A stretch of DNA of 64,000 nt from Cellulomonas uda (lineage in GTDB: Bacteria > Actinomycetota > Actinomycetes > Actinomycetales > Cellulomonadaceae), in the NCBI RefSeq assembly GCF_006538705.1, contig NZ_BJLP01000002.1:62001-126000 (forward strand), written 5' to 3'. The notes beneath the pieces were generated by a model. The model ran no database searches. It saw only the letters and a program-made list of their open reading frames with translations, and was not told the origin of the DNA. This document shows, in pieces, positions 44,845 through 62,771 of the stretch. A program made the translations under genes and the position numbers. The stretch's first letter is position 1. Each line of letters starts with the position of its first letter.

Positions 44845-45200
44845 GCACCCGCACCGTCCTCGTGGTCGCCTCGCCCGACACCTCGGACCAGGCCGTCGAG
44901 TCCCTGGCCGCCCCGCTGCGCGCCGCGGGCGGCGACGTCACGGTCGTCGACCTGCGCGCGCCCGGCACCCGCACCGCGACCGGCCGGCTCGCCGCAGCCC
45001 TGTCCGGGACCACCGCCTCGTGGTCCGCGGCCCGCCGCGTCACCGCGGCGCAGCGCGCACAGCTCCGGGACGCCGAGCTCGTCGTCGCCGCCGACCGCAC
45101 GGCCGTCCCCGCCGTGTGGCGCACGCGGCGTACCAACCCGAGCGCGGCACTGGTCAACGGCGTCCCCGCGGGGCAGCGCGTGCTCGCCGGGCGGCGGTGA
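44841..45200 (+). CDS. Small uncharacterised Rossmann-like protein (free-standing GT-tail domain)
   Basis: The 119-residue protein of no recognised family starts 'TRTVLVVASPDTSDQAVESL', a Rossmann-like strand-loop-helix, continues 'AGGDVTVVDLRAPGTRTATG', and ends with 'AELVVAADRTAVPAVWRTRR' and 'NPSAALVNG'. The last part aligns by eye with the C-termini of the long glycosyltransferases at 35804 ('LVLVTWGDPRGIPLATRLAR') and 40349 ('LVVLGDRSANALAAVLRE'), including the closing NPxAxxV / PDAxVV strand. It is translationally coupled to the preceding GT. A partner or regulatory domain for glycosyltransferases is inferred; no catalytic residues can be named. Confidence 0.7.
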   Translation: MSTRTVLVVASPDTSDQAVESLAAPLRAAGGDVTVVDLRAPGTRTATGRLAAALSGTTASWSAARRVTAAQRAQLRDAELVVAADRTAVPAVWRTRRTNPSAALVNGVPAGQRVLAGRR

Positions 45201-45203
45201 CGC

Positions 45204-46310: not shown

Positions 46311-46324
46311 CGCGCGCACCCCGC

Positions 46325-47380: not shown

Positions 47381-48227
47381 GCTCCCTCGACATGAAGAAC
47401 AGGCTCCCGACGACGGTCATGCCGACTGCCCACGAGGCCGCGGCGAGCCACATCGACGGCGACGGGATCTGTGCGTTCAGCACCAGCTCCGTCCAGCCAC
47501 CGACCATCGAGAACAGGGGGTTCACGACAACCATGAGGTCGACGTACTTCGCGACCGGGCTCGTGTCGAGCGAGTCGATCGACCAGAGGATCGGAGACAT
47601 GTAGAGCCAGATGCGCGTGAAGAACGGCAAGAAGCTCGACGTGTCGCGGAAGTACACCTGCAGGGTCGCCAACACCGCGGCGATACCGATCGAGAAGAGC
47701 GTCATGAAACCGAGGAACACCAGCGCAAGCAGCATCTGGGGGCCCCACGGCTCATCCGTGAACGCCTTGAGGATCAGCACGACGGGAAGGGTCGGCAGGA
47801 ACCGGAAGAACGCCGTGCGGACCGCGGACATCGGCATGAGGAGCCGCGGGAACGCCATGTTCATGATGAGCCGCCCGCCGCCCGTCACGGAGCTGGCGCC
47901 CGCTGACATCGACCCTGACACGAGGTGGAAGACGAAGAGGCCGCTGACGATGTGGGCCAGGGTGTCCGCGCCCCCCGATCCGCGCAGGATCACGACGAGG
48001 ATGTAGTACACGAGCGCCATGAGCAGCGGGTTCAGGATCAGCCAGAGCTGGCCGAACACCGTCTGCGAGTGAGCGGCACGGATGCTGGCCTTCGACGACT
48101 CCGCCGCGAACGGCAGTCGCGCGCGCAGGTCGCGGAAGTACGGTCCGAACCTCGGCAGGCCCGCCCGGTGGGGCGAGTAGACCTGCAGGTCCGCGTCGGC
48201 ATCGCGCACGACGTCCTTGGTCGACAT
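47358..48227 (-). CDS. Polysaccharide ABC exporter permease (TagG/Wzm-like, ABC-2 type)
   Basis: The 289-residue membrane protein has a cytoplasmic amphipathic N-terminus ('RAAHSQTVFGQLWLILNPLL' marks the first membrane entry) and six predicted helices typical of ABC-2 polysaccharide exporters, including 'FTRIWLYMSPILWSIDSL' and 'VVVNPLFSMVGGWTELVLN'. It forms the channel for the ATPase encoded next. Its DNA is clearly less GC-rich than the neighbours (about 57-63% in sampled 60-base lines such as 47581-47700, against about 80% nearby) and uses A/T-ending codons more often. This suggests different ancestry or selection. It lies 7 bp after the GT2 gene in the same operon. Confidence 0.93.
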   Translation of the reverse strand: MSTKDVVRDADADLQVYSPHRAGLPRFGPYFRDLRARLPFAAESSKASIRAAHSQTVFGQLWLILNPLLMALVYYILVVILRGSGGADTLAHIVSGLFVFHLVSGSMSAGASSVTGGGRLIMNMAFPRLLMPMSAVRTAFFRFLPTLPVVLILKAFTDEPWGPQMLLALVFLGFMTLFSIGIAAVLATLQVYFRDTSSFLPFFTRIWLYMSPILWSIDSLDTSPVAKYVDLMVVVNPLFSMVGGWTELVLNAQIPSPSMWLAAASWAVGMTVVGSLFFMSREREFAVRL

Positions 48228-48234: not shown

Positions 48235-49401
48235 TCAGTCCTCCGTCACGTGACGGTCAGGCCCCGGGCCTTCGGTCGGGGCCGGACGGGGCGCATTCGC
48301 CGCAACAGGATAGACGACGCCCGTCGTCGCCCCCGCCGGGGAGGCAGCGGCGGTCGTCCCGGGAGCGACCGCCGGTGCTCCCGCACGCGGAAGTCCGCGC
48401 AGGAAGCCGGAGCCCCACGCGAGGTGCATCGTGGCGACGACGCCGGGCAGGCGGCGGCGTGCCGCGGGGGGCAGGTCGCGGCCGACGACGGCGCAGCCCG
48501 CGACGACGGCCGCGGCGTACCCCACGGGCGCGGCGAGCCCGACGAGGAGCCAGCGCGGGCCGGCGGTCGCACCGACGGCCGCGACCGCGGTCCCCAGGGC
48601 GATCCCGGCGACCGCGGCGGGGGGCGCGAGGTAGCGCAGCCCGGCGGTCTGCGGGTGGTGCTTGATGACCTGGCGCCGCCACTGCCCCGTGCGGAAGAAC
48701 TGCCGGGCGAGCGCGCGCACGTCGCCGCGCGGCCGGTACGTCACGCCGAGGTCGGGCACGAACCAGACGACCTCGCCGGCCTCCCGCAGCCGGTGGTTGA
48801 GCTCCCAGTCCTGCGCGCGCACGAAGTGCTCGTCGTACCCGCCGACCCGCTCGAGCGCGTCGCGCCGGAAGACCCCCAGGTACACGGTCGGTGCGGGCCC
48901 GGGCTCGCCCCCGGTGTGGAACGCGGCGGAGCCGATGCCGAGCGGGCTGCTCATCGCCCGCGCGACGGCGTCCTCGAACGACGTGGTCCCCACGGGCACC
49001 ATGCGTCCGCCGACGTTGGCGGCGCCGGTCTCGAGCAGGGCATCGACGGCGCGCCGCACGTAGTCCGGCTCGAGCTCGCTGTGGCCGTCGACGCGCACGA
49101 GCACGTCGTGCCGCGCGGCGGCGACCGCGAGGTTGAGCCCGTCGGGCGTGCGTCCGGTCGGGTTGTCGATGACCCGCACGCGGGCGTCGCGCCCGGCCAG
49201 CTCCTGCGCGATCTCCAGCGTCCGGTCGTGGCTCGGTCCGACGGCCAGCACGACCTCGAGCTCGCCGGCGTAGTCCTGGCCCAGGACCCGCTCGATCGCG
49301 GCCGTCAGGTGCCGCTCCTCGTCGCGCACCGTGAGGAACACGGAGACCGGAGGCAGGTGGCTGGTGCCGTCGGGCTCCGACGGGCTCTTCGCGGGGGACA
49401 T
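48235..49401 (-). CDS. Family 2 glycosyltransferase
   Basis: The 388-residue GT-A enzyme has 'VSVFLTVRDEERHLTAAIER' at the N-terminus, the nucleotide/metal site 'VLVRVDGHSELEPDYVRRAV' (DGH in place of DxD, as in many GT2 members), 'YLGVFRRDALERVGGYDEHF' and 'QDWELNHRLREAG', which holds the catalytic ED/QxxRW-type region ('FFRTGQWRRQVIKHHP'). Two or three helices near residues 265-330 anchor it in the membrane, and a Pro/Ala-rich tail ends it. The family (succinoglycan ExoA-like) often starts repeat units. ATG 49401 is preferred to a TTG three codons upstream. It is the first gene of the export operon. Confidence 0.9.
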   Translation of the reverse strand: MSPAKSPSEPDGTSHLPPVSVFLTVRDEERHLTAAIERVLGQDYAGELEVVLAVGPSHDRTLEIAQELAGRDARVRVIDNPTGRTPDGLNLAVAAARHDVLVRVDGHSELEPDYVRRAVDALLETGAANVGGRMVPVGTTSFEDAVARAMSSPLGIGSAAFHTGGEPGPAPTVYLGVFRRDALERVGGYDEHFVRAQDWELNHRLREAGEVVWFVPDLGVTYRPRGDVRALARQFFRTGQWRRQVIKHHPQTAGLRYLAPPAAVAGIALGTAVAAVGATAGPRWLLVGLAAPVGYAAAVVAGCAVVGRDLPPAARRRLPGVVATMHLAWGSGFLRGLPRAGAPAVAPGTTAAASPAGATTGVVYPVAANAPRPAPTEGPGPDRHVTED

Positions 49402-49613
49402 CGCCGACAAGGCTAGCCCAGGCGACGACGTGCGCAGGCTCGCGCGCGACGCCCGTCAGGGCGATCCGGGACGGTTGCCTCGGCGCCCGGCGCGACTGCG
49501 CGACCCGCCGCTGTGACCTGCGACGTCACCCGTTCGCCGGGTGTGCGCGCATCTCCACAATCTCTCCACCGGGCACCTGCGAGCACTCCCCCTCTCACGC
49601 CGAGGGGGCTCCC

Positions 49614-49619
49614 TAGGAT
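49614..49619 (+). promoter_or_regulatory. Candidate -10 box, leaderless LCP transcript
   Basis: TAGGAT, exactly 7 nt, then GTG 49627 with no Shine-Dalgarno. The 225-bp divergent spacer to the GT2 gene otherwise shows no recognisable site, apart from an A/T-richer patch at 49550-49570. Confidence 0.5.
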
Positions 49620-49626
49620 CGACCGC

Positions 49627-50886
49627 GTGACCAGCACCCCTGCCTCCTCGGCCCGCCACGCCTCCGCCGCGCGTCCGTCAACGGTGCGCCACGCCCGTCA
49701 CCACCGCACCGGCCACATCCTGCGCGGGACCGCGCTGGCGACGGTCGCGCTGCTCGCGTTCGGCGGCACCGCGGCGTACGCGGTCTACGCCAGGCTCAAC
49801 GGCAACATCAACCACGTCGACGTCTCGGGCCTCATCGGCCCGCGGCCGACGGGCGGCGCGCAGGTCGGCGAGGACCCGAACGCCGGCAAGGACGTCAACA
49901 TCCTCCTGATCGGCTCGGACTCGCGCGAGGGTGCCAACGGGGAGATCGGCGGTCGCGTCGCGGGCGGCATGCGTTCCGACACGACGATCGTCATGCACAT
50001 CTCGGCGGACCGGGACCGCGTCGAGATGGTCTCCATCCCGCGTGACTCGATGGTCGAGATCCCCTCGTGCCAGACGACGAACGGGGCGACCGGCGCGAGC
50101 AGCTACGCGATGTTCAACGAGGCGTTCGCGCGCGGCTGGGACCTGGGGCTGGACCTGCAGTCGGCGGCCGCGTGCACGTGGCGCACGGTCGAGGCGAACA
50201 CGGGCATCACCATCCACGACTTCATGCTGGTCGACTTCGCCGGGTTCCAGACGATGGTCGACGCGATCGGCGGCGTGGACATCTGCATCCCGCAGGACAT
50301 GGACGACAAGAAGGCGAAGCTGCACGTCGAGGCCGGCAACAAGACGTTGGACGGCAAGACCGCGCTGGCGTTCGCGCGCTCGCGGCACAGCCAGGTGAGC
50401 GACGGCTCGGACATCGGCCGCATCGGCAACCAGCAGCGGCTGCTCGCCGCGATGGCCTCGCAGACGCTGTCGAAGAACGTCCTGACGGACTGGACGGACC
50501 TGCTGGGCCTGCTCAACGCCGCGACCAAGTCGCTCACGACGTCGATGCACACGCCCGACATGGCCGGCCTCGCCTACAGCGCCCGGAGCATCCGCACTGG
50601 CAACATCACGTTCATGACGATCCCGTGGGGCGCGGCGCCCGACGACAAGAACCGTGTGGTGTGGACCGACGAGGCCGACATCATCTGGTCGAACATCGCT
50701 GCGGACACGCCGCTGCTCACCGGCACGTCCCAGGACCCGGGCGCGAAGGCCACGGACAAGCCGTCCGCGACCGCGACGCCCACGCAGGGCCAGACCGCCG
50801 AGCCGACCAAGGCGCCCACGCCGAAGGCCACGCGCAAGGCCGGCCGCGAGGCGTTCACGCTCGACGACAACACGGGCAGCTGCTGA
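49627..50886 (+). CDS. LytR-CpsA-Psr (LCP) glycopolymer ligase
   Basis: The 419-residue protein has one transmembrane helix near residues 35-57 after a basic N-terminus, then an extracellular LCP domain (about 95-300): 'VNILLIGSDSREGANGEIGG', 'RSDTTIVMHISADRDRVEMV', 'SIPRDSMVEIP' and 'TALAFARSRHSQVSDGSDIG' with the pyrophosphate-binding Arg residues. The Pro/Thr-rich tail precedes 'REAFTLDDNTGSC'. LCP enzymes move glycopolymers from polyprenyl phosphate to peptidoglycan. Next to the ABC exporter it most likely attaches the polymer made by this island. GTG 49627 is set by the -10 box 7 nt upstream. A second LCP gene follows after 2 bp. Confidence 0.93.
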   Translation: MTSTPASSARHASAARPSTVRHARHHRTGHILRGTALATVALLAFGGTAAYAVYARLNGNINHVDVSGLIGPRPTGGAQVGEDPNAGKDVNILLIGSDSREGANGEIGGRVAGGMRSDTTIVMHISADRDRVEMVSIPRDSMVEIPSCQTTNGATGASSYAMFNEAFARGWDLGLDLQSAAACTWRTVEANTGITIHDFMLVDFAGFQTMVDAIGGVDICIPQDMDDKKAKLHVEAGNKTLDGKTALAFARSRHSQVSDGSDIGRIGNQQRLLAAMASQTLSKNVLTDWTDLLGLLNAATKSLTTSMHTPDMAGLAYSARSIRTGNITFMTIPWGAAPDDKNRVVWTDEADIIWSNIAADTPLLTGTSQDPGAKATDKPSATATPTQGQTAEPTKAPTPKATRKAGREAFTLDDNTGSC

Positions 50887-50888: not shown

Positions 50889-52310
50889 ATGGCGCGCGAC
50901 GAGCGGGGCACGCCGCCGAGCTTCGCCCCGGGGTCCGGCGGGAGCCGGCCCACGGGGCAGGACGCGGTCGTCGTCGGCTCGTCGAGGTCACCCGGTGGTG
51001 CCGGGACGCCGCCCCCGCCGCCCGCGCCTCCTCGCACCGCCGCACCTCCTCGCACCGCCGCGCCCCGGGCCGCCACGAGCCGGCGCCCCACGGCGCCCCG
51101 CGGCACCGGCGGCACTCCCCCGTCGTTCACGCCGGGCGACGAGACCGCGCGGACCGCGCCGCGTCGCACGGCCGCCCCGTCGGGTCGCACCGCGGCCTCG
51201 TCGGGTCGCACCGCGGCACCGTCGGGTCGCGCGCCGGGCAGGCCGACGACCGGCGGCGCCACGGCCGGCCGACCCGTCCCGCCCGCCGGGCGCGCTCCGG
51301 CGGGCCGCGGTCCCGGCGGTCCCACGGGTCCCGGCGGCGCCGCCGTCGCGGGCCCGGACCAGGCTCCCCCGCGTCGCCGCCGCGGCCGGATCGCCCTCGC
51401 GGTCGTCGCGCTCGTCCTGGTCCTGCTGCTCGCGTGGCCCATCGGGCTGCTCGTGTGGGCCAACGGCAAGATCCAGCGCACGGAGGCGCTCTCCGGCGCG
51501 GACGGCACGCCCGGCACCACCTACCTGATCACCGGGTCCGACTCGCGCGCCGACGGCGGGGTCAAGGACGACGGCACGCAGGGCCAGCGCTCCGACACGA
51601 TCCTGGTGCTGCACGTGCCGGACAGCGGCCCCACCGCCCTCATCTCCCTGCCGCGCGACACGTACGTCCAGATCCCGGGGCACGACCCGAACAAGATCAA
51701 CGCGGCGTTCGCGTTCGGCGGGGCACCGCTGCTCGTGGAGACGGTCGAGGAGCTCACGGGGCTGACGGTCGACCACTACGCCGAGATCGGCATGGCGGGT
51801 GTCAAGGACGTGGTCGACGCGGTCGGCGGTGTGCGCCTGTGCTACGACCACGACGTCGACGACCGTGACTCGCACATGAAGTGGTCGGCGGGCTGCCACT
51901 CCGTGGGCGGCCAGAAGGCGCTGCAGTTCGCCCGCATGCGCAAGGCCGACCCGCTGGGCGACATCGGCCGCGGTCAGCGTCAGCGTCAGCTCGTCGGCGC
52001 GGTGCTCGACAAGGTCGACCCGAAGTCCCTCGCGCTGCACCCGTCGCAGCAGGTCTCGCTCGTGTCCGCCGCGACGGACGCGCTCACGGTCGACGAGTCG
52101 AGCGACGTCGTCGACCTCGCCCGGCTCGCGCTCGCGTTCAAGGCCGCCAACGGCAAGGGCGGCATCACGGGGACACCGCCCATCGCGAGCATGGACTACC
52201 GTCCCGGCGGCGTCGGCTCGACCGTCCAGCTCGACCCGGAGCGGACACCCCCGTTCTGGAAGGCGATCCGCGAGGGCACGCTCGAGCCGGGCACCGTCGG
52301 GGGCGACTGA
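50889..52310 (+). CDS. LytR-CpsA-Psr (LCP) glycopolymer ligase with long disordered N-terminus
   Basis: The 473-residue protein has about 160 residues of Pro/Arg/Thr/Gly low-complexity sequence on the cytoplasmic side (for example four copies of a TAAPSGR/TAASSGR-like unit), one transmembrane helix (about 168-190, 'IALAVVALVLVLLLAWPIGL'), then the LCP domain: 'TYLITGSDSRADGGVKDDGT', 'RSDTILVLHVPDSGPTALIS', 'LPRDTYVQIPGHDPNKINAA' and 'KALQFARMRKADPLGDIGRG'. Substrate Arg and Asp residues are in place. It is co-transcribed with the first LCP gene. The cytoplasmic tail could be a target for Ser/Thr kinases; that is inference. Confidence 0.92.
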   Translation: MARDERGTPPSFAPGSGGSRPTGQDAVVVGSSRSPGGAGTPPPPPAPPRTAAPPRTAAPRAATSRRPTAPRGTGGTPPSFTPGDETARTAPRRTAAPSGRTAASSGRTAAPSGRAPGRPTTGGATAGRPVPPAGRAPAGRGPGGPTGPGGAAVAGPDQAPPRRRRGRIALAVVALVLVLLLAWPIGLLVWANGKIQRTEALSGADGTPGTTYLITGSDSRADGGVKDDGTQGQRSDTILVLHVPDSGPTALISLPRDTYVQIPGHDPNKINAAFAFGGAPLLVETVEELTGLTVDHYAEIGMAGVKDVVDAVGGVRLCYDHDVDDRDSHMKWSAGCHSVGGQKALQFARMRKADPLGDIGRGQRQRQLVGAVLDKVDPKSLALHPSQQVSLVSAATDALTVDESSDVVDLARLALAFKAANGKGGITGTPPIASMDYRPGGVGSTVQLDPERTPPFWKAIREGTLEPGTVGGD

Positions 52311-52343
52311 CTCCCCGGCGTCCCGGCCGCACCGGTCAGTCGC
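52303..52343. terminator. Hairpin between LCP and cysN with both stop codons in its arms
   Basis: Perfect 9-bp arms GCGACTGAC (52303-52311) and GTCAGTCGC (52335-52343) each contain one of the two convergent stop codons; a short CGG/CCG inner pairing follows. Likely bidirectional terminator. Confidence 0.6.
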
Positions 52344-53595
52344 GCGCCGCCGTGACGATCCCCGCGCCGACGGTCCGCAACGTCGACTCGTCGACGAGGA
52401 TGAACGACCCGGTCTCGCGGTTCAGCTCGTACTGGTCGACGAGCACGGGGGTCGCGGTGCGCAGCCGCACGCGGCCGATGTCGTTGAGCTCGAGGGTGTC
52501 GGCACCCGGGTCGCGGTGCAGCGTGTTGATGTCGATCCGGTAGTCCACCGCCGTGACCTTCGCGCGCGTCGAGCGCGTCGTGTGCTTGAGCCCGTAGACG
52601 ACGCCGGGCCGCAGCGGCGCGGTCTCGTCCATCCAGCACACCTGCACGTCGAGGTCCTGCGTCGCGTGCGGCGTGTTCGCCGGGCGGCACAGCATGTCGC
52701 CCCGGCTGATGTCGAGCTCGTCGGCGAGCCGCACGACGACCGACATCGGCGGGAACGCGACGTCGACGGGCTCGCCGGCCTGGTCGATCGAGGCGATCGT
52801 CGAGGTGAACCCGCTGGGCAGCACGACCACGGGGTCGCCCGGCCGCATGACGCCGCTGGCGACCCGGCCCGCGTACCCCCGGTAGTCGCGCGCGGAGCTC
52901 GACTGCGGGCGGATCACGTACTGCACCGGGAAGCGCACGTCGATGAGGTTGCGGTCGCTCGCGACGTGCAGGTGCTCGAGATGCCCGAGCAGCGTCGCGC
53001 CGTCGTACCAGGGCGTGCGCGCGCTGCGGTCCACGACGTTGTCCCCGAGCAGCGCGGACACCGGGATGAACGTCAGGTCGTGCGTGCGCAGCCGCGCCGC
53101 GAAGTCGGCGAAGTCGGCGCGGATCTCGTCGAACACGTCCTGCGACCAGTCGACGAGGTCCATCTTGTTCACGCACACGACGAGGTGCGGCACGCCCAGG
53201 AGCGTCGCGAGGAACGCGTGGCGGCGGCTCTGCTCCGTCATGCCCTTGCGCGCGTCGACGAGGATCAGCGCCGCGTCCGCGGTCGAGGCCCCAGTGACCA
53301 TGTTCCGCGTGTACTGGATGTGCCCCGGGGTGTCCGCGATGATGAACTTGCGCCGCGGCGTGGAGAAGTAGCGGTACGCGACGTCGATGGTGATGCCCTG
53401 CTCGCGCTCGGCGCGCAGGCCGTCGGTGAGCAGCGCGAGGTCGGTGTAGTCGTCGCCCCGGTCGGCGCTGACCCGCTCGACCGCCTCGACCTGGTCGGTG
53501 AACAGCGACTTGCTGTCGTACAGCAGGCGTCCGATCAGCGTCGACTTCCCGTCGTCGACGGAGCCGGCGGTCGCGAACCTCAGCAGATCGCTCAT
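52336..53595 (-). CDS. cysN: Sulfate adenylyltransferase GTPase subunit CysN
   Basis: The 419-residue translation-factor-like GTPase has G1 'FATAGSVDDGKSTLIGRLL', G2 'GITIDVAYRYFSTPRRK', G3 'IADTPGHIQYTRNMVTGAST' and G4 'VCVNKMDLVDW', followed by two beta-barrel domains. With CysD it makes adenosine 5'-phosphosulfate (APS) from sulfate and ATP, driven by GTP hydrolysis. The length shows no fused APS kinase domain, unlike NodQ or mycobacterial CysNC; the kinase is separate at 59279. ATG 53595 lies 2 bp after the cysD stop. It is the last gene of the operon hypothetical > sulfotransferase > cysQ > cysD > cysN. Confidence 0.95.
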   Translation of the reverse strand: MSDLLRFATAGSVDDGKSTLIGRLLYDSKSLFTDQVEAVERVSADRGDDYTDLALLTDGLRAEREQGITIDVAYRYFSTPRRKFIIADTPGHIQYTRNMVTGASTADAALILVDARKGMTEQSRRHAFLATLLGVPHLVVCVNKMDLVDWSQDVFDEIRADFADFAARLRTHDLTFIPVSALLGDNVVDRSARTPWYDGATLLGHLEHLHVASDRNLIDVRFPVQYVIRPQSSSARDYRGYAGRVASGVMRPGDPVVVLPSGFTSTIASIDQAGEPVDVAFPPMSVVVRLADELDISRGDMLCRPANTPHATQDLDVQVCWMDETAPLRPGVVYGLKHTTRSTRAKVTAVDYRIDINTLHRDPGADTLELNDIGRVRLRTATPVLVDQYELNRETGSFILVDESTLRTVGAGIVTAARD

Positions 53596-53597
53596 GT

Positions 53598-54524
53598 CTA
53601 GAAGTACCCCTCGCGCTTGCGGTCCTCCATCGCGGCCTCGCTCACCCGGTCGTCGCCGCGCGTCGCGCCGCGCTCCGTGAGCCGGGCGGCCGCGATCTCG
53701 TCGATCACGTCCTGCACGGTCGCGGCGGTCGACTCGACCGCCGCGGTCAGGTTCGCGTCGCCCATCGTGCGGTAGCGCACGCTGCGGCGCGTGACGGTCT
53801 CGCCCTCCCGGGGCTCGACGAACGCGTTGACCGCGTAGAGCATCCCGTCGCGCTCGACGACGTCGCGCTCCGCGGCCAGGTACAGGTCGGGGATCGCGAC
53901 GTCCTGCGCACCGATGTACGACCAGATGTCGAGCTCGGTCCAGTTGGACAGCGGGAACACCCGGATCGACTCGCCCGGGTGCACGCGGCCGTTGTAGAGC
54001 GACCAGAGCTCCGGGCGCTGGTTCTTCGGGTCCCACTGGCCGAACTCGTCACGGAACGAGAACACCCGCTCCTTGGCGCGTGCCTTCTCCTCGTCGCGCC
54101 GCGCCCCGCCGAACAGCGCGTCGAAGCCGTGCTGCTCCGCGGCCTCGAGCAGCACGGGCGTCTGGATGCGGTTGCGCGAGCCGCTCCGCTCCTCGCGGAC
54201 CAGCCCGCGATCGATCGCCTCCTGGACCGACGCGACGACGAGCCGCAGCCCGAGCTCGTCGACGACCGCGTCGCGGAACTCGATGACCTCGGGGAAGTTC
54301 AGCCCGGTGTCGACGTGCATCACCGGGAACGGGATGCGCGCGGGCGCGAACGCCTTCACCGCGAGGTGCAGCATGACGATCGAGTCCTTGCCGCCCGAGA
54401 ACAGCAGGCAGGGCCGGCGCATCTCGGCCGCGACCTCGCGCATCACGTGGATGCTCTCGGACTCGAGGGCCTCGAGGTGGCTCAGCTGGTAGTGCGGCTG
54501 GTGGTGCGGTCGGCTCGTGGTCAC
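53598..54524 (-). CDS. cysD: Sulfate adenylyltransferase subunit 2 CysD
   Basis: The 308-residue PP-loop ATP pyrophosphatase is the catalytic subunit that adenylates sulfate. It has the PP motif 'CLLFSGGKDSIVMLHLAVKA', the conserved 'PFPVMHVDTGLNFPEVIEFR', 'FDALFGGARRDEEKARAKER' and 'SFRDEFGQWDPKNQRPELW', and a C-terminus of the usual length ending 'MEDRKREGYF'. It works as a heterodimer with CysN. Its GTG start overlaps the cysQ stop by 4 bp. No cysH, sulfite reductase or sulfate transporter gene is found nearby, which points to PAPS production for sulfation rather than cysteine synthesis. Confidence 0.96.
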   Translation of the reverse strand: MTTSRPHHQPHYQLSHLEALESESIHVMREVAAEMRRPCLLFSGGKDSIVMLHLAVKAFAPARIPFPVMHVDTGLNFPEVIEFRDAVVDELGLRLVVASVQEAIDRGLVREERSGSRNRIQTPVLLEAAEQHGFDALFGGARRDEEKARAKERVFSFRDEFGQWDPKNQRPELWSLYNGRVHPGESIRVFPLSNWTELDIWSYIGAQDVAIPDLYLAAERDVVERDGMLYAVNAFVEPREGETVTRRSVRYRTMGDANLTAAVESTAATVQDVIDEIAAARLTERGATRGDDRVSEAAMEDRKREGYF

Positions 54525-55318
54525 GGGGCACCATCCTCCCGGGTCGGCGGGGCGTCGGGTGCGACGAGCGCCTGCGCGCGGGCGACGAGACCCAGGAGCT
54601 CGTCCGCGCGCTCGGGCTCGCACACGAGCAGGTCGGGCAGCCACGGGCTGCGCCGGTTGTACTCGAGCGCGGCGCCGTCGACGCGCGAGCAGTGCAGACC
54701 GGCCGCGGTCGCGACCGCGACCGGCGCGGCCGAGTCCCACTCGTACTGGCCGCCCGCGTGGACGTACGCGTCGGTCCGGCCCGTCACGACCGAGGCGACC
54801 TTGACCCCCGCCGAGCCCATGGGCACGAGCTCGACGTCGGCCAGCGTCGCGAGCGCGTCGACGAGCGCGGGCGGGCGCGAGCGGCTCACCGCGAGCCGCA
54901 GCGGGCCGGGCCGGCGCGCGGGCCGTTCGACGCGCGCGTCGGTGCGCAGCACCGTCCCTCGTCCGGGCAGCGCCACGGCGCCCGCGACGAGCCCCCGCCC
55001 GCGCTGCCAGAGCGCGACGTGCACCGCCCAGTCGTCCCGCCACGAGCCGTCGTCGTGCCGTTCGGCGTACTCGCGGGTGCCGTCGAGCGGGTCGACCACC
55101 CACACGCGGTCGGCGGACAGGCGTGCGCCGTCGTCGGCGGCCTCCTCCGACAGCACCGCGTCGTGCGGGCGCGCCCGCGTCAGCTCGCGCGCGAGGTATG
55201 CCTGGGCGGCCGCGTCGCCCCGCGCGCGCAGATCGGTCGTGTCGCCCTGGTCACGCTCGGCGAGCAGCACCCGGCCCGCGCCCTGCGCGAGCGCGGCGGC
55301 CAGCTCGTGGTCGGTCAT
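54521..55318 (-). CDS. cysQ: CysQ-type 3'(2'),5'-bisphosphate nucleotidase
   Basis: The 265-residue inositol-monophosphatase-fold enzyme hydrolyses PAP, the by-product of sulfotransferases, to AMP and phosphate. It has the metal-binding 'LSEEAADDGARLSADRVW' and 'WVVDPLDGTREYAERHDDG', plus 'QYEWDSAAPVAVATAAGLH' with the second metal site and 'YNRRSPWLPDLLVC'. It is placed between the sulfotransferase and cysD with 4-bp overlaps on both sides, exactly where a PAP-recycling enzyme would be expected if the sulfotransferase is active. ATG 55318 overlaps the upstream stop. Confidence 0.93.
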   Translation of the reverse strand: MTDHELAAALAQGAGRVLLAERDQGDTTDLRARGDAAAQAYLARELTRARPHDAVLSEEAADDGARLSADRVWVVDPLDGTREYAERHDDGSWRDDWAVHVALWQRGRGLVAGAVALPGRGTVLRTDARVERPARRPGPLRLAVSRSRPPALVDALATLADVELVPMGSAGVKVASVVTGRTDAYVHAGGQYEWDSAAPVAVATAAGLHCSRVDGAALEYNRRSPWLPDLLVCEPERADELLGLVARAQALVAPDAPPTREDGAP

Positions 55319-57275
55319 GCGTCGTCCTCCTTGAGGGTCAGCGTCGAGCGCAGCGCGCGAGCCGCACCCACGAGCCGCGGCGCCGACGCGTCGACCACGT
55401 CGTCGTCCGCGGCGGTGCGCGGCGGCCGCAGCACGGTCCCCAGCCCGCCGACGACCGCGACGCCCGACGCGGTCACGCGCGCCACGAGGAGCTCGCCGAG
55501 CTCCGCGACCTGCGGCTGCAGGTCCTCCGGCACGCCGAGCGCAGGCTCGTCGGGACCCGTGGACCACCGCGAGAGCGCCGTGCGCACCTGGGCCGGGGTG
55601 AGGCCCGACGCGCGTCGACCCAGCGCGCCCGTGTTGCGCAGCCGCAGCACCGCGGCCTCGCGGTCGCTCATCGCCCGGACCACGCGACCCGCCCGCACCA
55701 CGCGCGTCGGGAGGTCCAGCATGCGCACGGGTGCGTCGACCAGCAGCGCACCGTCGGACGGTCGCGGCACCAGCACCGTGACTCCCTCCACGCCCACGCG
55801 GCGCGTCCACACCTCGAGGAGGTCCTCGCGGTCGGCCGCCGCGAGCGGCACGCGGCCCGGCCCGCCGGCCGCGAGCGCGGCGGTCAGCCACGACCGCAGG
55901 GTCTGCGTCCCGCCCGCGAGCAGGTGGTCGGCGTAGCAGCCGAGCAGGACGTCCCCGAGCGGGCGGAGCGTGACGAGCACGCGCGCGTCCCGCAGGTCCG
56001 AGTCGGGCACCGCACCGGGGTCCAGGGCCCAGGCGTCGTCGCTCACGAACGTCCGGCGGCCCGCGGCGGGCGCGTCGGGCGACAGGTCGACCCCGTGCGC
56101 GCTCAGCGCGTCGGCGGACGCGGCGAACGCCGCGCGCAGGCGATGCCCGCCCGTGTGCGGCGGCCCGACGTGCACGAGCCGGCCGGGCGCGGGCACGAGG
56201 TTCACCCCGTCGAGGCGGTGCCGGCGCTGCGTCCCCGCCTGCGCCTCGGCGACGAGCTCCTCCGCCCGCTCGAGCAGACCTGCGAGCGCGATCGTCGCGA
56301 CGTCCAGCGGCACGCTCGTCGTCGTGTTCGACGCGGGCGGGTCCGCCGGGACGCGCGCGAGCTCGTCGAGCGAGCCAACCACGCGCACACCCGACGCGCG
56401 GACCTCGTCGGCGACCTGCCGGCCGAGCGCGGCGACACCCGCGACGAGCGGCGCCGGGATGGTCGGCCGCACCGTCCCCGGAGGCGGCTCCCACCCGTGC
56501 AGCATGGGCGTGACCGCCCCGCGGTAGACCAGCGCGCGACGGCGCGCGGCGGGCACCCGCAGCCGGCGCGTGCGGACGTTGAGCTGCCGCACGAGCTCGC
56601 TCTCGGGCAGGGTCATGCCGCGGTTGCGCTCGCTCACCGCGAGCGTGCCGGCCGGGATCGCGAGCAGCTGCTCGAACACCGAGAACAGCCGCTCGGGCGC
56701 GGAGCGCTGCAGCACGACGACCGTCACGTGCTCGGCACCGAACACCCGCGCCCACCGGTGCGTGAGCCACGTGTCGTCCGCGCGGTGGAACGTGCGCACG
56801 CGCTCGGGCCGGCGCAGCCGCGCGGCGAGCCAGTCGTCGAACGGTGTGGGCTCGCCGTTGCGGACCGCCTGCTGCCACATCGAGGGCAGGAAGCCACCCA
56901 TGTCCCGCAGCGTGAGGACGACGTGCGAGCGCGGGCCGACGAGCTCGCGGACGCGACGCACCTCGTCGAGGTCGGACCAGGTGAGCTCCTCGGAGCTCAG
57001 CAGCACCCGGCTCGTCGTGTCCGCCGCGAGCGCCGCCCGCAGGTCCCCCAGCCGGTGCTGCCCGGCCGTCTGCGTCTCGACGCTCGCCCACCGAACAGCG
57101 CGCGGAACGCGAGCGCGTGGTTGACGTCCGCGCCCGGGTACTGCACACCGGCCGCCTGCAGCTCGGCGCGCTGGTCGTGGAACGCGCCCTGCACCGACGA
57201 CGTGCCGGTCTTGTGCGCGCCGATGTGCACGAGCCGCGTGCCCTCCGGGAGCGGCTCGAGGACGAGGTCAGCCAC
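55315..57275 (-). pseudogene. Tandem-domain sulfotransferase interrupted by a frameshift
   Basis: From GTG 57275 (GGAGGTGG upstream) one frame codes 'RLVHIGAHKTGTSSVQGAFH', the 5'-phosphosulfate loop of a sulfotransferase, up to 'NHALAFRALFGGR' near 57084. Coding then continues in a different frame from 'VETQTAGQHRLGDLRAALAA' (57081 downward) to 55315. A single missing base at about 57081-57084 explains it; restored, the protein would be 653 residues. The downstream frame alone has a GTG at 57006 (563 residues) but lacks the PAPS loop. The second half repeats the fold with 'RLVHVGPPHTGGHRLRAAFA', a degenerate PAPS loop. Stop overlaps cysQ by 4 bp. It may be a true mutation, a phase-variable site or a sequence error. 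Confidence 0.8.
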
Positions 57276-57828
57276 GGGCCACCTCCGCGCGCGCCTCGTC
57301 GACGAGCGCGAGCGTGCGCACGAACACCCCCGCGAGGAGCTCGCCGACGAGCTCCGCGTCGACCTCGTCGGCCGCCCCGGAGGCGTGCGTCGTGCCCATC
57401 CCGTGCGCCGTGCCCGTCCCGTCCGCCGCGAGCCGCAGCACGTCGGCGACGACGTCCGCACGCAGGCGGTCCCGCAGCGTCCCGGGCTCCGTCGGGGCCA
57501 GCGCCGCGGTGACCCGGCGGACGAGCTCGAGCGCCGCGTCGGACGGGAGCGGGCGGTCGTCCTCGGCCCCGGCCTCGGACCCGGCCTCGGACCCGGCGTC
57601 GGCCCCGCCGTCGGCCCCGCCGTCGGTCTGGACCGCGGGCTCGGCGGCCCACTCGTCGAAGGTCCGCACGTCCCCCGCGAGCACGGCCCGCGCCCAGGCA
57701 CGACGCTTCGCCGCGGCCCTCTCGTCGTCGAGCCGCACCGTCGCGGTCGTCCGGTCGTCGTGCTGGGCGTCGTGACCTGCGGTGATGCCGGGACGTTCGG
57801 GGGACGTCAGTGCACTGCCTTTCCTCAC
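57268..57828 (-). CDS. Hypothetical protein upstream of the sulfotransferase
   Basis: The protein is unrecognised (186 residues from GTG 57828). It contains 'DERAAAKRRAWARAVLAGDV' and 'RTFDEWAAEPAVQTDGG', an acidic Ala/Gly/Ser repeat (ADGGADAGSEAGSEAGAED), and a helical C-terminus 'AELVGELLAGVFVRTLALVD'. Its TGA lies 8 bp inside the sulfotransferase gene, so it is probably coupled to it. The start is uncertain: an ATG at 57906 is in frame, but falls at the likely transcription start and the extra 26 residues look non-coding; a GTG near 57742 is another option. It could be a small partner of the sulfotransferase; there is no direct evidence. Confidence 0.5.
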   Translation of the reverse strand: MRKGSALTSPERPGITAGHDAQHDDRTTATVRLDDERAAAKRRAWARAVLAGDVRTFDEWAAEPAVQTDGGADGGADAGSEAGSEAGAEDDRPLPSDAALELVRRVTAALAPTEPGTLRDRLRADVVADVLRLAADGTGTAHGMGTTHASGAADEVDAELVGELLAGVFVRTLALVDEARAEVARG

Positions 57829-57905
57829 GGTCCCGCACAGGCGGGCCGACGGGCTCTCCGGCGCCCGTGGGGGACGCCGGAGGTCCGGCGGCGGGCACCG
57901 ACCCA

Positions 57906-57916
57906 TACGGTAGCGT
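57906..57916. promoter_or_regulatory. Possible overlapping divergent -10 boxes
   Basis: Plus strand TACGGT (57906-57911) and TAGCGT (57911-57916) fit -10 boxes for the 57984 gene, giving a leader of about 65 nt. The complementary TACCGT (57912-57907) fits the minus operon of sulfur genes. The spacer is short, so the two directions may compete. Confidence 0.35.
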
Positions 57917-57983
57917 TCAGCCTCGGCCGGGCCGCGCCACGTCTCGTCGTGCCCGGGACCGAGTCTTCAGGAGGACATCCCCC

Positions 57984-59243
57984 ATGGGTCGACTGCGATC
58001 GACAGCTGGCCGCGCCAAGCGCTCTCTCAAGCGGAGGGTGCGCAACGTCGTCGCACCGGCCGTCGCCTCGGACGCGAAGAAGGCCAGCAAGGCCGCGCGC
58101 GACGCGGCGACGTCCGCGGACCTCGCCGAGAGCGCGCTCGCGGAGGTCCGCCGCCTCGTCGGCGGCCTGCCCGGTGGCGTCACCGTCACGGCGGCGCGCC
58201 CGACGACCGCGAAGGTCTCCGGCCGCAAGCCCGTCGTGGGCCTCGCCGGGTTCTTCGGCGACGGCAACTACGGCGACGAGCTGTTCCTCGAGGTGTTCAA
58301 GCAGCACCTCGGCCCGCACTTCGAGCTCAAGGTCCTCGCGGACCTGCCGAGCACGCCGTACTTCTCGCGCGACGTCAAGGACGTGGTCGCGGACGTCGAC
58401 GCGATCGTCATCGGCGGCGGCGACATCCTGCAGCCGTGGAACCAGGACCCGCGCTACTTCAACCACGCGTTCCTGGCCAAGCCGGTGTTCGTCGTCGGCA
58501 TCGGCGTGCCCCAGTACACGGGCCCCAACGCGCCCGAGGAGAAGGAGCACATCGTCGCGCGGCACCGCCGCTTCATGGCGCACCCGAACGTGCGCCGGAT
58601 CGGCGTCCGCGACGACCAGGCCGCCCTGTGGATCCGCGACCGGCTCGACCCGCCGGGCGAGATCCTCGTCGCGCCGGACATCGTCTCGAGCCTCGACCTG
58701 CCCCCGGCGACGAAGCCCGCGGGTGCGCCGATCCTGGGCGTCGTGACCCGCTTCCGCCCCAACCGCGCGAAGCCGGACGACTACTCCGAGGTCGTCAAGC
58801 TCGCGCAGCACGTGACCGAGCAGGGATGGCGCGTGCGCCAGATCATCCTGGGCACGAACAACGTGGGCAAGCGTGACCTCGCGAACGCGGAGGACTTCGT
58901 GTTCGAGGGCAAGGAGGTCGTGTACTCCGAGGACCTCGACGACCTGTCGCGCGCGATCGGCGAGTGCACCACGCTCGCGTCGATGAAGTTCCACGGCACC
59001 GTGGTCGCGACGATGTACGGCGTGCCGTCGATCGTCATGATCCCGACGAACAAGAACATCAACTTCATGCACCGCATCGGGCTCGACGCGCTCGTGTCGA
59101 GCTTCGACTCGCCGCAGCTGATCGAGAAGTTCGACGGCCGGCCCGAGGTCGACCCGACGGACCTCGCGCGGATCCGCCGCCAGGCGACGGAGCACATGCG
59201 CGGGCTCGCGAACGCGATCGCCGAGGCGGTCGTCGCGCGCTGA
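57984..59243 (+). CDS. Polysaccharide pyruvyl transferase family protein (CsaB-like)
   Basis: The 419-residue protein has a basic N-terminus, an Ala/Lys-rich helical stretch (about 28-60, possibly coiled coil), then the polysaccharide pyruvyltransferase domain: 'VVGLAGFFGDGNYGDELFLE', 'DAIVIGGGDILQPWNQDPR', 'RRIGVRDDQAALWIRDRL', 'DIVSSLDLPPA', 'TLASMKFHGTVVATMYGVPS'. Family members transfer pyruvate from PEP to a sugar, making a ketal that serves as an anchor for S-layer proteins or gives negative charge. ATG 57984 is preceded by CAGGAGGA at ideal spacing. It is monocistronic, divergent from the sulfation operon and convergent with cysC, with a strong terminator between. Confidence 0.88.
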   Translation: MGRLRSTAGRAKRSLKRRVRNVVAPAVASDAKKASKAARDAATSADLAESALAEVRRLVGGLPGGVTVTAARPTTAKVSGRKPVVGLAGFFGDGNYGDELFLEVFKQHLGPHFELKVLADLPSTPYFSRDVKDVVADVDAIVIGGGDILQPWNQDPRYFNHAFLAKPVFVVGIGVPQYTGPNAPEEKEHIVARHRRFMAHPNVRRIGVRDDQAALWIRDRLDPPGEILVAPDIVSSLDLPPATKPAGAPILGVVTRFRPNRAKPDDYSEVVKLAQHVTEQGWRVRQIILGTNNVGKRDLANAEDFVFEGKEVVYSEDLDDLSRAIGECTTLASMKFHGTVVATMYGVPSIVMIPTNKNINFMHRIGLDALVSSFDSPQLIEKFDGRPEVDPTDLARIRRQATEHMRGLANAIAEAVVAR

Positions 59244-59260
59244 CCGCAGCACCGCACCCC

Positions 59261-59302
59261 GCAGCGGGGGTCGACGCCTCAGAGGCCGTCGACCCCCGCT
59301 GC
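59261..59302. terminator. Strong bidirectional terminator overlapping the cysC stop
   Basis: Perfect 16-bp arms GCAGCGGGGGTCGACG (59261-59276) and CGTCGACCCCCGCTGC (59287-59302) surround a 10-nt loop that carries the cysC stop codon. It thus serves both the pyruvyltransferase gene and cysC. Confidence 0.85.
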
Positions 59303-60580
59303 GCGTAGGGCCGCCAGGACGGTCGCGACCGCGCCGCCGATGTCGTCGCGCGACGTGTCCAGCACGACGTCCGCGTCGTGCGGCACCTCGTACGGCGAGG
59401 ACACCCCCGTGAACTCCGGCAGGTCCCCCGCCCGGGCGCGCGCGTACAGGTGCTTGCGGTCACGCGCCTCGCAGACCTCGAGGGGCGTGGCGACGTGCAC
59501 GAGCACGAACCCCGCGACCGCCTCCGTGCGGCGGCGCACGTCCGCGCGGTCCTCCTCGAACGGCGCGATCGCCGCGACGAGCACGATGCCGCCCGCGCCC
59601 GCGACGAGCGAGGCGACGTAGCCGATGCGCCGCACGTTCTGCGAGCGGGACTCGCGGTCGAACCCGAGGCCCGCGGACAGCATGTGCCGCACCTCGTCGC
59701 CGTCGAGCACGGTGACCTGCCGGGACACGGACGTCTGCAGGCGCTGCGCGACGGCCTTGGCGACGGTCGACTTCCCGGAGCCCGACAGCCCCGTGAACAG
59801 CACGACCGCGCCGGGCCCCGCGCCCGCGTCGCGCGACGACGCCAGCTCCCGCACCGAGGCGGCCGGGAACCGTGCCTCGAGCACGGCCGCGCGGCGCTGC
59901 TCGGCCTCGGCGTACGCCACCCGCGCTCCGCTGGGCGCCGCCGTGAGGTCGAGGACGTCGGTCGCGCCGTACGCGCGGGCGAGCTCGTCGAGCGTGGGCT
60001 CGCCGCCCGGCCACGCGAGGCGCTCGAGGCGCGCGCCGCGCGCCCACGGGACCGCCACGACCTCGACGGGCACCGCGACCCGGCCCGAGCGCGTCAGCTC
60101 GTCGCGCAGCGCGGCGGTCGCCCGCACGACGCCCGCCGCCGTCACGTCCAGCGCGTGCGCGGGGCGCGGCGGTGCGACGAGGCAGAGCAGGAGGACGGTG
60201 CGTACGTCCCGGGCCCGCTCGACGAGCCCGTCGACCTGGTCCAGACCGACCACGTCGTCGACCAGGACGCCCAGCGCGGGTCCGTCGCCCACGCGGTCCC
60301 GGACGGCGTGCGCGGCCACGCGGGCACGCGGGTCCGCGTCCTCGCCGCCCCGCAGCCCGCGGGGGCGCAGCGCCGCCAGCGGGTGGCCGCCGCGCTCGCG
60401 GACCGCGACGGGCGTGTTCTCGTCGTCCAGCAGGACGACGGCGCCGTCCGGGGCGGCCGCGACCACCGGGTGCCGGTCGGCCGGGATCGCCCCGCCGAGC
60501 GCGAGCTCGACGGCGTCGGCGTCCGTCGCGCCGAGGACCAGCTGGGGTAGACCGCTCCAGCGGGTCCAGTCGTCGCTCAT
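59279..60580 (-). CDS. cysC: Adenylylsulfate (APS) kinase with ATP-sulfurylase-like N-terminal region
   Basis: The C-terminal 185 residues of this 433-residue product form an APS kinase: P-loop 'VLFTGLSGSGKSTVAKAVAQ', 'VTVLDGDEVRHMLSAGLGFD', 'SRSQNVRRIGYVASLVAGAG', 'VHVATPLEVCEARDRKHLYA' and 'FTGVSSPYEVPHDADVVLDT'. It phosphorylates APS to PAPS, the sulfuryl donor. The N-terminal 240 residues include 'DAVELALGGAIPADRHPVV' and 'VLLDDENTPVAVRERGG', like the PUA-type domain of bifunctional ATP sulfurylases, but QxRNP and HxxH catalytic motifs are absent. So this part is probably regulatory or vestigial. ATG 60580 is chosen; TAACCT 8 nt upstream suggests a nearly leaderless transcript. Confidence 0.9.
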   Translation of the reverse strand: MSDDWTRWSGLPQLVLGATDADAVELALGGAIPADRHPVVAAAPDGAVVLLDDENTPVAVRERGGHPLAALRPRGLRGGEDADPRARVAAHAVRDRVGDGPALGVLVDDVVGLDQVDGLVERARDVRTVLLLCLVAPPRPAHALDVTAAGVVRATAALRDELTRSGRVAVPVEVVAVPWARGARLERLAWPGGEPTLDELARAYGATDVLDLTAAPSGARVAYAEAEQRRAAVLEARFPAASVRELASSRDAGAGPGAVVLFTGLSGSGKSTVAKAVAQRLQTSVSRQVTVLDGDEVRHMLSAGLGFDRESRSQNVRRIGYVASLVAGAGGIVLVAAIAPFEEDRADVRRRTEAVAGFVLVHVATPLEVCEARDRKHLYARARAGDLPEFTGVSSPYEVPHDADVVLDTSRDDIGGAVATVLAALRAAGVDGL

Positions 60581-60635: not shown

Positions 60636-62771
60636 TCACCCGTCCGCGGCGGTCCCGCTCGGGTGCGGCTCGGGGCTGCCCGTGCGGTCCCGCGCGTCGT
60701 CGTCGCGCTCGTCCAGACCCGTGGCGGCGAGGATCCGGTCGGCGACGAGCGGGCCCAGCGAGCGCGCGTACGTCGCCGTGATGTGCCCCGCCGTGTCCCG
60801 GTACGCGAGCACGCCGCCGATGACCACGGGGCACCCGGTGTCCGTGCAGTACAGGTCCTGGATGTCGACGTAGTGCGCCCGGGGCACGCGTTCCACCGCG
60901 AGCTGCAGCAGGTCGACCACGGCGAAGCCCTCGTCGAGCGGGATGGTGCAGCCCGCGGGGTCCTGCCCGATGCGCGCGACGCACGCCAGGGCCGCGTCGC
61001 TCACGATCGGACCGTCCGAGACGGCGACGACCTGCGAGCCGCGGCGCGCGACGTCGCGCATCATCGCCGCCATGCCGGGCACGCGCGAGAGCTTCTCGGC
61101 GCCGACCGCCGACCGGCTGCCCGACGTGATGACCAGGTCGTAGGGCTCGCCGTCGAGCAGCTTCGAGCGGATCTCCTCGGACGTCTCGACGCAGTTCTCG
61201 TTCACGTCGCGGCTCAGGGAGCACCCGTTGCCCACCATGACGGTGACGCGCCAGCCGCGCTCGTCGGCCTGCTCGAGCAGCCCGGGCAGCAGGGCCGCGG
61301 CGTGCGAGTTGCCGACGACCGCGACCCGCAGCGAGCCGTCCGGGTCGCCGTCCTCGCACGTGCGGGCGCCGGACGTGGGGGTCGAGTAGCAGTCGTACGC
61401 GCGCTCGGTGTCGTGCTCCGCGTCCTGCGGCGAGGGCACCATGCCGGCGAACGTGACGCCCGCGCACGCCTCGCGGTGCTCGAGCGCGAGCGCGCCGCGG
61501 CAGTCCGCCTGCACCACGGGGGGTGCGGTGGCCGTCGGCGTCGCGTTCTGCTCGAGCGCACGCACCCCGGCCGCGGCGCCCGCGACGACGAGCACCGTGA
61601 TCGCGCTCGCCGCGACCAGCGGGGTGCGCAGCCGTCGCGCCGTCTCGCGCCGCGGCAGCCCGCCCACGTGCCGCACCGGGTTCTCGACGAGGTGGTAGGC
61701 CGGGAGCGCGAGCGCCACGCCCCCGGCGAGCGCCACGGGCACGAACCACGGCGAGTCCTCGGCGAGCAGCGTGGGCAGCAGCACGACGACGGGCCAGTGC
61801 CACAGGTACAGCGAGTAGGACGCGTCGCCCACGTAGTTCGCGAACCGGTTGGTGAGCGGCCACGGGCCGCGCACGCCCGCGCCCTCGCCCGCGGCGATCA
61901 CGAGCGCGGTGGACAGCACCGGCAGCACGGCCCACGGTGCGGGGAAGCCCGCGTCCTCCCGCACGACCAGGAGCGAGACGACGATCCCCGCGAGCCCCAC
62001 CCAGGCGAGGACGGGCCGTGCACGCCCGAGCGTCATGCCCAGGCGCGCCGCGGCGATCGCGACGAGCGCACCGATGCCCAGCTCCCACACCCGCGTGAGC
62101 GTCGAGAAGAACGCGTAGGTCGGCTGCGCCGAGGTCTGGACGACCGCCCACACGAACGAGGCACCGACGACGACGCTCATCGCGGCGAACAGCGCACGGC
62201 CGTGCCGCGCCGCGCGCTCGCGCCCCGCCGCGCGGCGCGCCGTCAGGACGAGCAGGCCGAGCATGAGCCACGGCCACACGAAGTAGAACTGCTCCTCGAC
62301 GGAGAGCGACCAGAAGTGCTGCACGGGCGAGGGCGGCAGCCCCTGCGCGAAGTAGTCGGTGCCCTCGCGCGCGAACCGCCAGTTGACGACCGTGAGCGCC
62401 GCGGCGACGGCGTCGCGCACCGTGCTCGCCAGGCGGCTGCCGCCCACGAGCACGGCCGTGAGCCCCACGGTCACGGCGAGCGTCAGGAGCGCGTTGGGCA
62501 GGATGCGGCGCACGCGGCGCGCGTAGAACCCGCGGAACGAGATGGTGCCGCTGCGGCGGTGCTCGCGCAGGAGGAGTCCGGTGATCAGGTAGCCGCTGAT
62601 GACGAAGAACACGTCGACACCGACGAACCCGCCGTGCGGCCAGCCGACCACGTGGTCGGCCATCACGGCGATCACCGCGACGGCACGCAGCCCCTGGACG
62701 TCCCTCCGGCGCACTGCCGGCGTCGGGCGTTCGGCCGACGCCGCCACGGCCTCCGCGGTCGCCGACGTCAT
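60636..62771 (-). CDS. Acyltransferase-3 / SGNH O-acyltransferase (OafA-like)
   Basis: The 711-residue membrane enzyme has an AT3 domain of about ten helices (about 20-385) with 'RDVQGLRAVAVIAVMADHVV', 'GFVGVDVFFVISGYLITGLL', the 'RRVRRILPNALL' arginines and 'HFWSLSVEEQFYFVWPWLML', followed by one linker helix and an extracellular SGNH domain with 'VAVVGNSHAAALLPGLLEQA' (Ser in GNSH) and 'LAYRDTAGHITATYARSLGP' (Asp-His pair). Such proteins acetylate or otherwise acylate envelope polysaccharides. The two free-standing SGNH proteins at 12.7-15.5 kb resemble its C-terminal domain. Cys-rich loops suggest disulfides. The leader before ATG 62771 includes a stable hairpin. Confidence 0.93.
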   Translation of the reverse strand: MTSATAEAVAASAERPTPAVRRRDVQGLRAVAVIAVMADHVVGWPHGGFVGVDVFFVISGYLITGLLLREHRRSGTISFRGFYARRVRRILPNALLTLAVTVGLTAVLVGGSRLASTVRDAVAAALTVVNWRFAREGTDYFAQGLPPSPVQHFWSLSVEEQFYFVWPWLMLGLLVLTARRAAGRERAARHGRALFAAMSVVVGASFVWAVVQTSAQPTYAFFSTLTRVWELGIGALVAIAAARLGMTLGRARPVLAWVGLAGIVVSLLVVREDAGFPAPWAVLPVLSTALVIAAGEGAGVRGPWPLTNRFANYVGDASYSLYLWHWPVVVLLPTLLAEDSPWFVPVALAGGVALALPAYHLVENPVRHVGGLPRRETARRLRTPLVAASAITVLVVAGAAAGVRALEQNATPTATAPPVVQADCRGALALEHREACAGVTFAGMVPSPQDAEHDTERAYDCYSTPTSGARTCEDGDPDGSLRVAVVGNSHAAALLPGLLEQADERGWRVTVMVGNGCSLSRDVNENCVETSEEIRSKLLDGEPYDLVITSGSRSAVGAEKLSRVPGMAAMMRDVARRGSQVVAVSDGPIVSDAALACVARIGQDPAGCTIPLDEGFAVVDLLQLAVERVPRAHYVDIQDLYCTDTGCPVVIGGVLAYRDTAGHITATYARSLGPLVADRILAATGLDERDDDARDRTGSPEPHPSGTAADG

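Follow-up and report, generated by a model that had tools for sequence, protein, structure and literature searches.

A probable sulfation branch for a teichulosonic-acid-like wall polymer in a surface-glycan island of Cellulomonas uda

The stretch analysed here (the window) comprises 64,000 nucleotides of Cellulomonas uda DNA, bases 62001-126000 of contig C2 (126,258 bases), in a draft genome of 3.56 Mb and 103 contigs. Within an island of surface-glycan genes it carries genes for the synthesis of 3'-phosphoadenosine 5'-phosphosulfate (PAPS), for a phosphatase that may remove 3'-phosphoadenosine 5'-phosphate (PAP) and for a predicted sulfotransferase (Table 1). This locus is probably the sulfation branch of an island for a sulfated, pyruvylated and acylated wall polymer that resembles teichulosonic acids. 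The PAPS made here very likely serves the sulfation of a surface glycan, and the ulosonate polymer is the likely acceptor of the sulfate. An earlier note on this DNA knew of no described wall-polymer sulfation locus of this layout in Cellulomonas-like bacteria. Its claim of novelty is narrowed to the gene assignment and the sulfotransferase family, which are new as far as the searched literature shows; the product class is already known chemically, because a sulfated, pyruvylated wall polymer is described in the related genus Promicromonospora, according to the account in PMC6801904 as far as it goes.

The enzymes of PAPS synthesis are identified by their families, with CysD (TIGR02039), CysN (TIGR02034) and the adenosine 5'-phosphosulfate (APS) kinase domain (TIGR00455) all passing the NCBIfam cut-offs. 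The cysQ of the earlier note belongs to the Inositol_P superfamily (PF00459 passed) and scores 78 bits with the CysQ equivalog model, whose cut-off is 228.8. A search of the genome with PF01583 gave a single match over the cut-off, the window's APS kinase, and one with PF01507 gave three places, CysD in the window and CysD and CysH on contig C29. On C29 the gene order is a nitrite/sulfite-reductase-family gene, cysH, cysD and cysN, which is the second, cysH-linked set that the earlier note had proposed to look for. The reductase passes PF01077 and no NCBIfam cut-off, its top model being nitrite reductase, and the name sulfite reductase comes from its place. The C29 CysH passes two general CysH models, scores 220.8 bits with the APS-reductase model and 181.3 bits with that for PAPS reductase, neither score reaching its cut-off, and is probably of the APS type. 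It shares 83-86% identity with the CysH proteins of G022, G032 and G070, three genomes that lack a strong APS kinase. Since this CysH leans toward APS and resembles that of genomes lacking a strong APS kinase, assimilation can run from APS, which leaves the APS kinase free for sulfation; PAPS in this genome is probably not used for cysteine. A CysD tree of 18 rows, 15 of them distinct, separates copies of the module type from the cysH-linked Cellulomonas copies with support 100/100; one copy of either kind is present in this genome.

Comparisons were made with a reference set of 221 genomes of the window's GTDB family (G-numbers denote genomes and L-numbers fetched loci). A strong APS kinase is present in 55 of them, and CysH is present in the three examined genomes without one. 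This distribution, the cysH-linked set on C29 and the presence of sulfotransferase and CysQ-like genes inside the run make it highly improbable that the locus is an ordinary sulfate activation set for cysteine synthesis that lies in a glycan island by chance. What favors such a role comes from other genomes: in Cellulomonas composti (G029) and in eight genomes sampled from other genera, the only CysD found, told from CysH by match length, is that of the module. In C. composti the ATP sulfurylase therefore probably serves both pathways (the sole CysD lies in the sulfation module and CysH elsewhere, C7:118590 and C1:439503), and CysDN of the other genera probably also serves assimilation. Thus the description of the module as dedicated to sulfation suits this genome, with its second cysDN set, and does not extend to those nine. 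The mycobacterial sulfolipid system also makes PAPS in an actinobacterium for surface sulfation, but its APS kinase forms a fusion with CysN (as in PDB entries titled CysN/CysC), whereas the cysC of the window is separate and fused to its own N-terminal domain. This domain of about 240 residues (in 59831-60580) is found in 12 of the 221 genomes (Cellulomonas, group g8 and the Promicromonospora group); its sequence matches nothing in Pfam or PDB above chance level, and its predicted fold is of low confidence.

The sulfotransferase family is present in 25 of the 221 genomes (two, G138 and G152, counted on weaker matches with E 1e-6 and 7e-21), and all 25 are among the 55 with a strong APS kinase. 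The nearest listed sulfotransferase gene lies within 30 kb of the APS kinase on one contig in 18, far from it in 2 and on a different contig in 5. G042, G040 and C. composti share the order APS kinase, sulfotransferases, cysQ, cysD, cysN, each having two or three sulfotransferase genes, and those of C. composti NBRC 100758 are open. G052, the closest relative found, has the layout of the window with one. Comparison with relatives, as the earlier note had advised, thus shows the layout recurring in four other genomes of the genus, so its occurrence in the window is not due to chance. Genes of the cys set also lie inside the fetched flank of the sulfotransferase in G135, G133, G198 and G200.

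The designation of the enzyme as a sulfotransferase rests on a PAPS-loop-like motif and the predicted fold of relatives, not on a Pfam match, and sulfate transfer is accordingly a prediction. No piece of the window protein matches any Pfam family at E 0.1, those of sulfotransferases included. Eleven of the 25 relatives match Sulfotransfer_4 at E up to 1 (best E 0.00024), and the relative in L044 reaches 12.2 bits, below the cut-off of 22.8. The predicted fold of a relative is that of a PAPS-dependent sulfotransferase and is nearest to the heparan-sulfate sulfotransferases; identity to the 3-O- and N-sulfotransferases (PDB 3bd9, 1nst) is 13-14%, and the Foldseek superposition is loose (best TM score 0.39 of the query). 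Bacterial sulfotransferases often act on small molecules. It is nevertheless very improbable that PAPS is made here for a sulfated small molecule, with a fold nearest to glycan sulfotransferases and the gene in a glycan island. Profile matches cover the first domain (277 bits) and two pieces of a second domain (18 and 81 bits). Tandem sulfotransferase-like domains in one chain are seen in the window (55375-56215), L045 (8929-11394) and L051 (8711-10786); in the window protein the second domain has a degenerate PAPS loop, and a second degenerate domain is also present in the relatives in L043, L045 and L051.

Genes for a nonulosonic acid lie past the contig end, beyond the view of the earlier note. 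The one NeuB of the genome (PF03102, 271 bits) is on contig C39, which continues the island of the window because the second pyruvyltransferase of G052 (618 residues; the G052 genome is a single contig) is split over the two contig ends, residues 2-474 matching the end of C2 and residues 472-618 that of C39. Past the end of this gene, C39 encodes a GT4 and a GT2 glycosyltransferase, a fusion of a CMP-nonulosonate synthase with a KdsC/KDN-9-phosphatase-like domain, NeuB and a further protein of no recognized family (no Pfam or NCBIfam match), which might be polysialyltransferase-like. The G191 homologue of the fusion passes the PF02348 cut-off. The island thus holds both a nonulosonate synthase and a CMP-nonulosonate synthase, as a teichulosonic acid locus does, with the adjacency of C2 and C39 resting on collinearity with G052. 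NeuA, NeuB and the same follow-on protein are found near the module in all four genus relatives that have it (G052, G040, G042 and C. composti). A mannose-6-phosphate isomerase gene lies about 5 kb from NeuB; mannose-6-phosphate is a precursor of 3-deoxy-D-glycero-D-galacto-non-2-ulosonic acid (Kdn). Across the family, 35 of the 221 genomes have a close NeuB in addition to a strong APS kinase; the two are within 20 kb in 31, far apart in 1 and on different contigs in 3 (including the genome of the window). The distance is within 20 kb in all 13 genomes of the Promicromonospora group (g19) that hold both.

The chemistry of such a polymer is known from Promicromonospora citrea 665T, a member of a genus in the same GTDB family. 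As far as the account in PMC6801904 goes, its wall contains a Kdn-teichulosonic acid with glucose 3-sulfate and 7,9-pyruvylated Kdn, as well as a pyruvylated, O-acetylated galactan, and the sulfate is described on the Kdn polymer (citing Dmitrenok 2017). The Cellulomonas island has corresponding genes for nonulosonic acid, pyruvate, sulfate, export and wall ligation. In that account the P. citrea polymer is known from its structure alone, whereas the Cellulomonas side is known from genes alone. The Kdn teichulosonic acid cluster of Streptomyces coelicolor (SCO4873-SCO4882) is likewise a cluster for a phosphate-free, Kdn-containing wall polymer, a likeness by description and not gene by gene, and sulfate is not mentioned in the portions of PMC13011467 and PMC7831098 that describe it. 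Sulfated surface polysaccharides with biosynthesis genes are also described, in partial accounts, from marine Vibrio KMM 8419 (PMC11641403) and Cobetia (PMC11766843). These are similar to the proposed polymer by description, not by sequence, and they differ from it in being Gram-negative capsules.

Several observations weigh against the proposed reading of the locus. Eight of the 25 sulfotransferase genomes lack a close NeuB, so ulosonate polymers are not the only context of the family, and 18 of the 53 genomes with a close NeuB have no strong APS kinase. The equivalog cut-offs for Neu5Ac and Pse are missed by NeuB, that for Pse by the cytidylyltransferase and those for KDN-9-P (89.8 vs 180 bits) and KdsC by the phosphatase domain, so these models name no particular acid and Kdn is a candidate. 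In the Promicromonospora group, the sulfotransferase next to the NeuB/cysC cluster is no more than a distant homologue (63-66 bits) and was seen in two of five genomes scanned; no sulfotransferase was seen in the scanned stretches of G195, G185 and G188, which begin or break off at contig ends or close to them. The closer homologues of G189, G191 and G195 sit elsewhere, not near APS kinase. In G162 and G137, where APS kinase and NeuB are close, the 20 kb scanned hold no sulfotransferase. Those eight genomes, the location of the closer homologues in three Promicromonospora-group genomes and the galactan of P. citrea (PMC6801904, in part) would fit sulfation of a second polymer of the same island (a galactan, glucan or glycolipid) with NeuA and NeuB as mere neighbors. 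We consider this unlikely, since no more than 20 kb separates APS kinase from NeuB in 31 of the 35 genomes with both, NeuA and NeuB accompany the module in every genus relative that has it and the sulfate of P. citrea sits on the Kdn polymer.

The two Promicromonospora-group loci with the distant homologue otherwise resemble the island of the window. That of G191 contains cysN-cysD-cysQ, cysC, an exporter, NeuB, NeuA and pyruvyltransferases with the homologue adjoining, and that of G189 (Promicromonospora sp. AC04) contains cysD, cysN, NeuB, a pyruvyltransferase and the same homologue, which may act on the polymer. A gene for a TauE/SafE-type transporter, possibly of sulfur compounds, lies in a cys/NeuB locus of this group (L176 14213-15304).

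A further observation on the opposing side is a frame change in the sulfotransferase gene, which in the window is not a single intact frame. The frame changes at about 57066-57100: the N-terminal part, which extends from 57275 to about 57100 and holds the PAPS-loop-like motif in HIGAHKTGTSSVQ, differs in frame from the rest (from about 57066). The entire gene is in one frame in G052 (84% identity). The sulfotransferase gene of the earlier note is upheld by motif and by the fold of relatives, but not as one open frame or by Pfam. The change may silence sulfation in this strain or may be an assembly error. Because no second member of the broken gene's family was found in the genome, the strain may not sulfate its glycan. 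The earlier proposal of PAPS for a sulfated, pyruvylated, acylated and exported wall glycan withstands the refuting condition set in that note, as the genome has a second cysDN set with cysH and one strong APS kinase, and is qualified to this extent. That the branch is dead here and the cys genes are leftovers is compatible with the proposed function in relatives, and for this strain we hold it to be rather unlikely. Compared with G052, the ratio of nonsynonymous to synonymous substitution rates (dN/dS) is 0.27 in the main part, 0.38 in the N-terminal part (58 codons), 0.27 in cysQ and 0.22 in cysC. The codons on either side of the change thus look to be under purifying selection, so the change would be recent or an assembly error, and the value equal to that of cysQ argues against old decay. 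The assembly is a draft, the change falls in a G-rich stretch and the compared neighboring genes contain no stop.

In the proposed pathway, CysDN would convert sulfate and ATP to APS, which CysC would phosphorylate to PAPS. Still inside the cell, the sulfotransferase would use PAPS to sulfate a sugar of the glycan under assembly, and the by-product PAP would be cleared by the CysQ-like phosphatase. NeuB and the NeuA-phosphatase fusion would make and activate the acid, the glycan being most likely a Kdn-like nonulosonic acid polymer, and the pyruvyltransferases and the acyltransferase would decorate it. The Wzm/Wzt-type ABC transporter would export the glycan and the LCP ligases would join it to peptidoglycan. 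We lean, with some reserve, toward the broader view that islands with APS kinase and NeuA/NeuB mark a widespread, as yet unassigned class of sulfated, pyruvylated nonulosonic acid wall polymers in Cellulomonas, Promicromonospora and their relatives. The enzymes that sulfate these polymers would form an undescribed bacterial family of glycan sulfotransferases that fold like heparan sulfotransferases and in some cases carry a degenerate second domain in tandem. A sulfated wall polymer is known in this bacterial family from its structure, and the islands provide candidate genes for an entire pathway in Cellulomonas and relatives and point to a sulfotransferase family that Pfam misses in the window. 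They make testable the route by which sulfate reaches a Gram-positive wall polymer and whether sulfate replaces phosphate as the negative charge of the wall, and they offer enzymes to try for glycan sulfation.

Table 1. Genes and domains of the sulfation locus and the surrounding glycan island, in window positions (ST, sulfotransferase)
Feature	Position	Strand	Evidence
cysN, ATP sulfurylase large subunit, without fused APS kinase	52336..53595	-	TIGR02034 551.9 bits vs cut-off 336.1; 97% identity in G052
cysD, ATP sulfurylase small subunit, module-type paralogue	53598..54524	-	TIGR02039 447.2 vs 396.6; apart from own C29 CysD, support 100/100
cysQ-like phosphatase, putative PAP recycling	54521..55318	-	PF00459 over cut-off; TIGR01331 below; position kept in relatives
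ST main part: remaining catalytic domain and second, degenerate ST-like domain (~55375-56215)	55315..57066	-	Profile matches; fold of C. composti relative
ST N-terminal part with HIGAHKTGT loop, other frame	57066..57275	-	Profile match 75 bits; G052 homologue single-frame
Small gene overlapping ST start, without assigned family	57268..57738	-	No Pfam/NCBIfam match
Polysaccharide pyruvyltransferase, CsaB-like	57960..59243	+	PF04230 71.3 vs 25.3 bits
cysC, APS kinase with ~240-residue N-terminal domain	59279..60580	-	PF01583 184.6 bits; TIGR00455 over cut-off; genome search
OafA-type O-acyltransferase with SGNH domain	60636..62771	-	PF01757, PF19040
Second pyruvyltransferase, runs off window, end on contig C39	62896..63999	+	PF04230 50.9 bits; G052 homologue split over C2/C39 ends
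LCP-family glycopolymer ligase	49513..50886	+	PF03816 151.6 bits
LCP-family glycopolymer ligase	50889..52310	+	Open frame; PF03816 149.1 bits on 50889-52228
ABC glycan exporter (Wzt/Wzm, TagH type): ATPase 46325-47380, putative permease 47358-48227	46325..48227	-	PF00005 (ATPase)
GT2 glycosyltransferase	48235..49410	-	PF00535
Glycosyltransferases and UDP-sugar dehydrogenase, same island	35804..46451	mixed/not stated	GT4-type Pfam families; PF03721/PF00984/PF03720

The overlapping pack of cys and sulfotransferase genes in the earlier note holds for the minus-strand run sulfotransferase, cysQ-like, cysD, cysN, with 4-base overlaps at the first two junctions and a 2-base gap between cysD and cysN. 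It does not include cysC, which lies 2 kb 5' of the sulfotransferase gene behind a pyruvyltransferase and a small gene. The order 5' of the sulfotransferase gene is the small gene, the plus-strand pyruvyltransferase, cysC, the acyltransferase and the second pyruvyltransferase, which leaves the window; 3' of cysN are the two LCP ligases, the GT2 gene, the exporter, several GT4-type genes and the UDP-sugar dehydrogenase. The neighbors named in the earlier note (two pyruvyltransferases, acyltransferase, exporter ATPase and two LCP ligases) are all borne out by Pfam. The exporter permease has no Pfam match and an NCBIfam match below cut-off, and the teichoic-acid and galactan exporter models matched by the exporter are all below their equivalog cut-offs. 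The first pyruvyltransferase passes the broader PF04230 and misses the CsaB equivalog cut-off (64.8 vs 213.1 bits), and the GT4-type match of the gene at 42134-43372 is weak. The small gene has 55% identity in G052, and the three remaining genomes with the module contain no match to it at E 1e-6.

Related sulfotransferase loci are also seen outside the family. In three Actinopolyspora genomes (L103, L110 and L120, about 9366-11194) an APS kinase adjoins a member of the sulfotransferase family, with no cysDN match within the fetched flank. Several Nocardioidaceae loci have two to four open reading frames with the sulfotransferase loop motif, and a contig of a Propionibacteriales metagenome-assembled genome (L085 314-13660) has eight inside about 13 kb.

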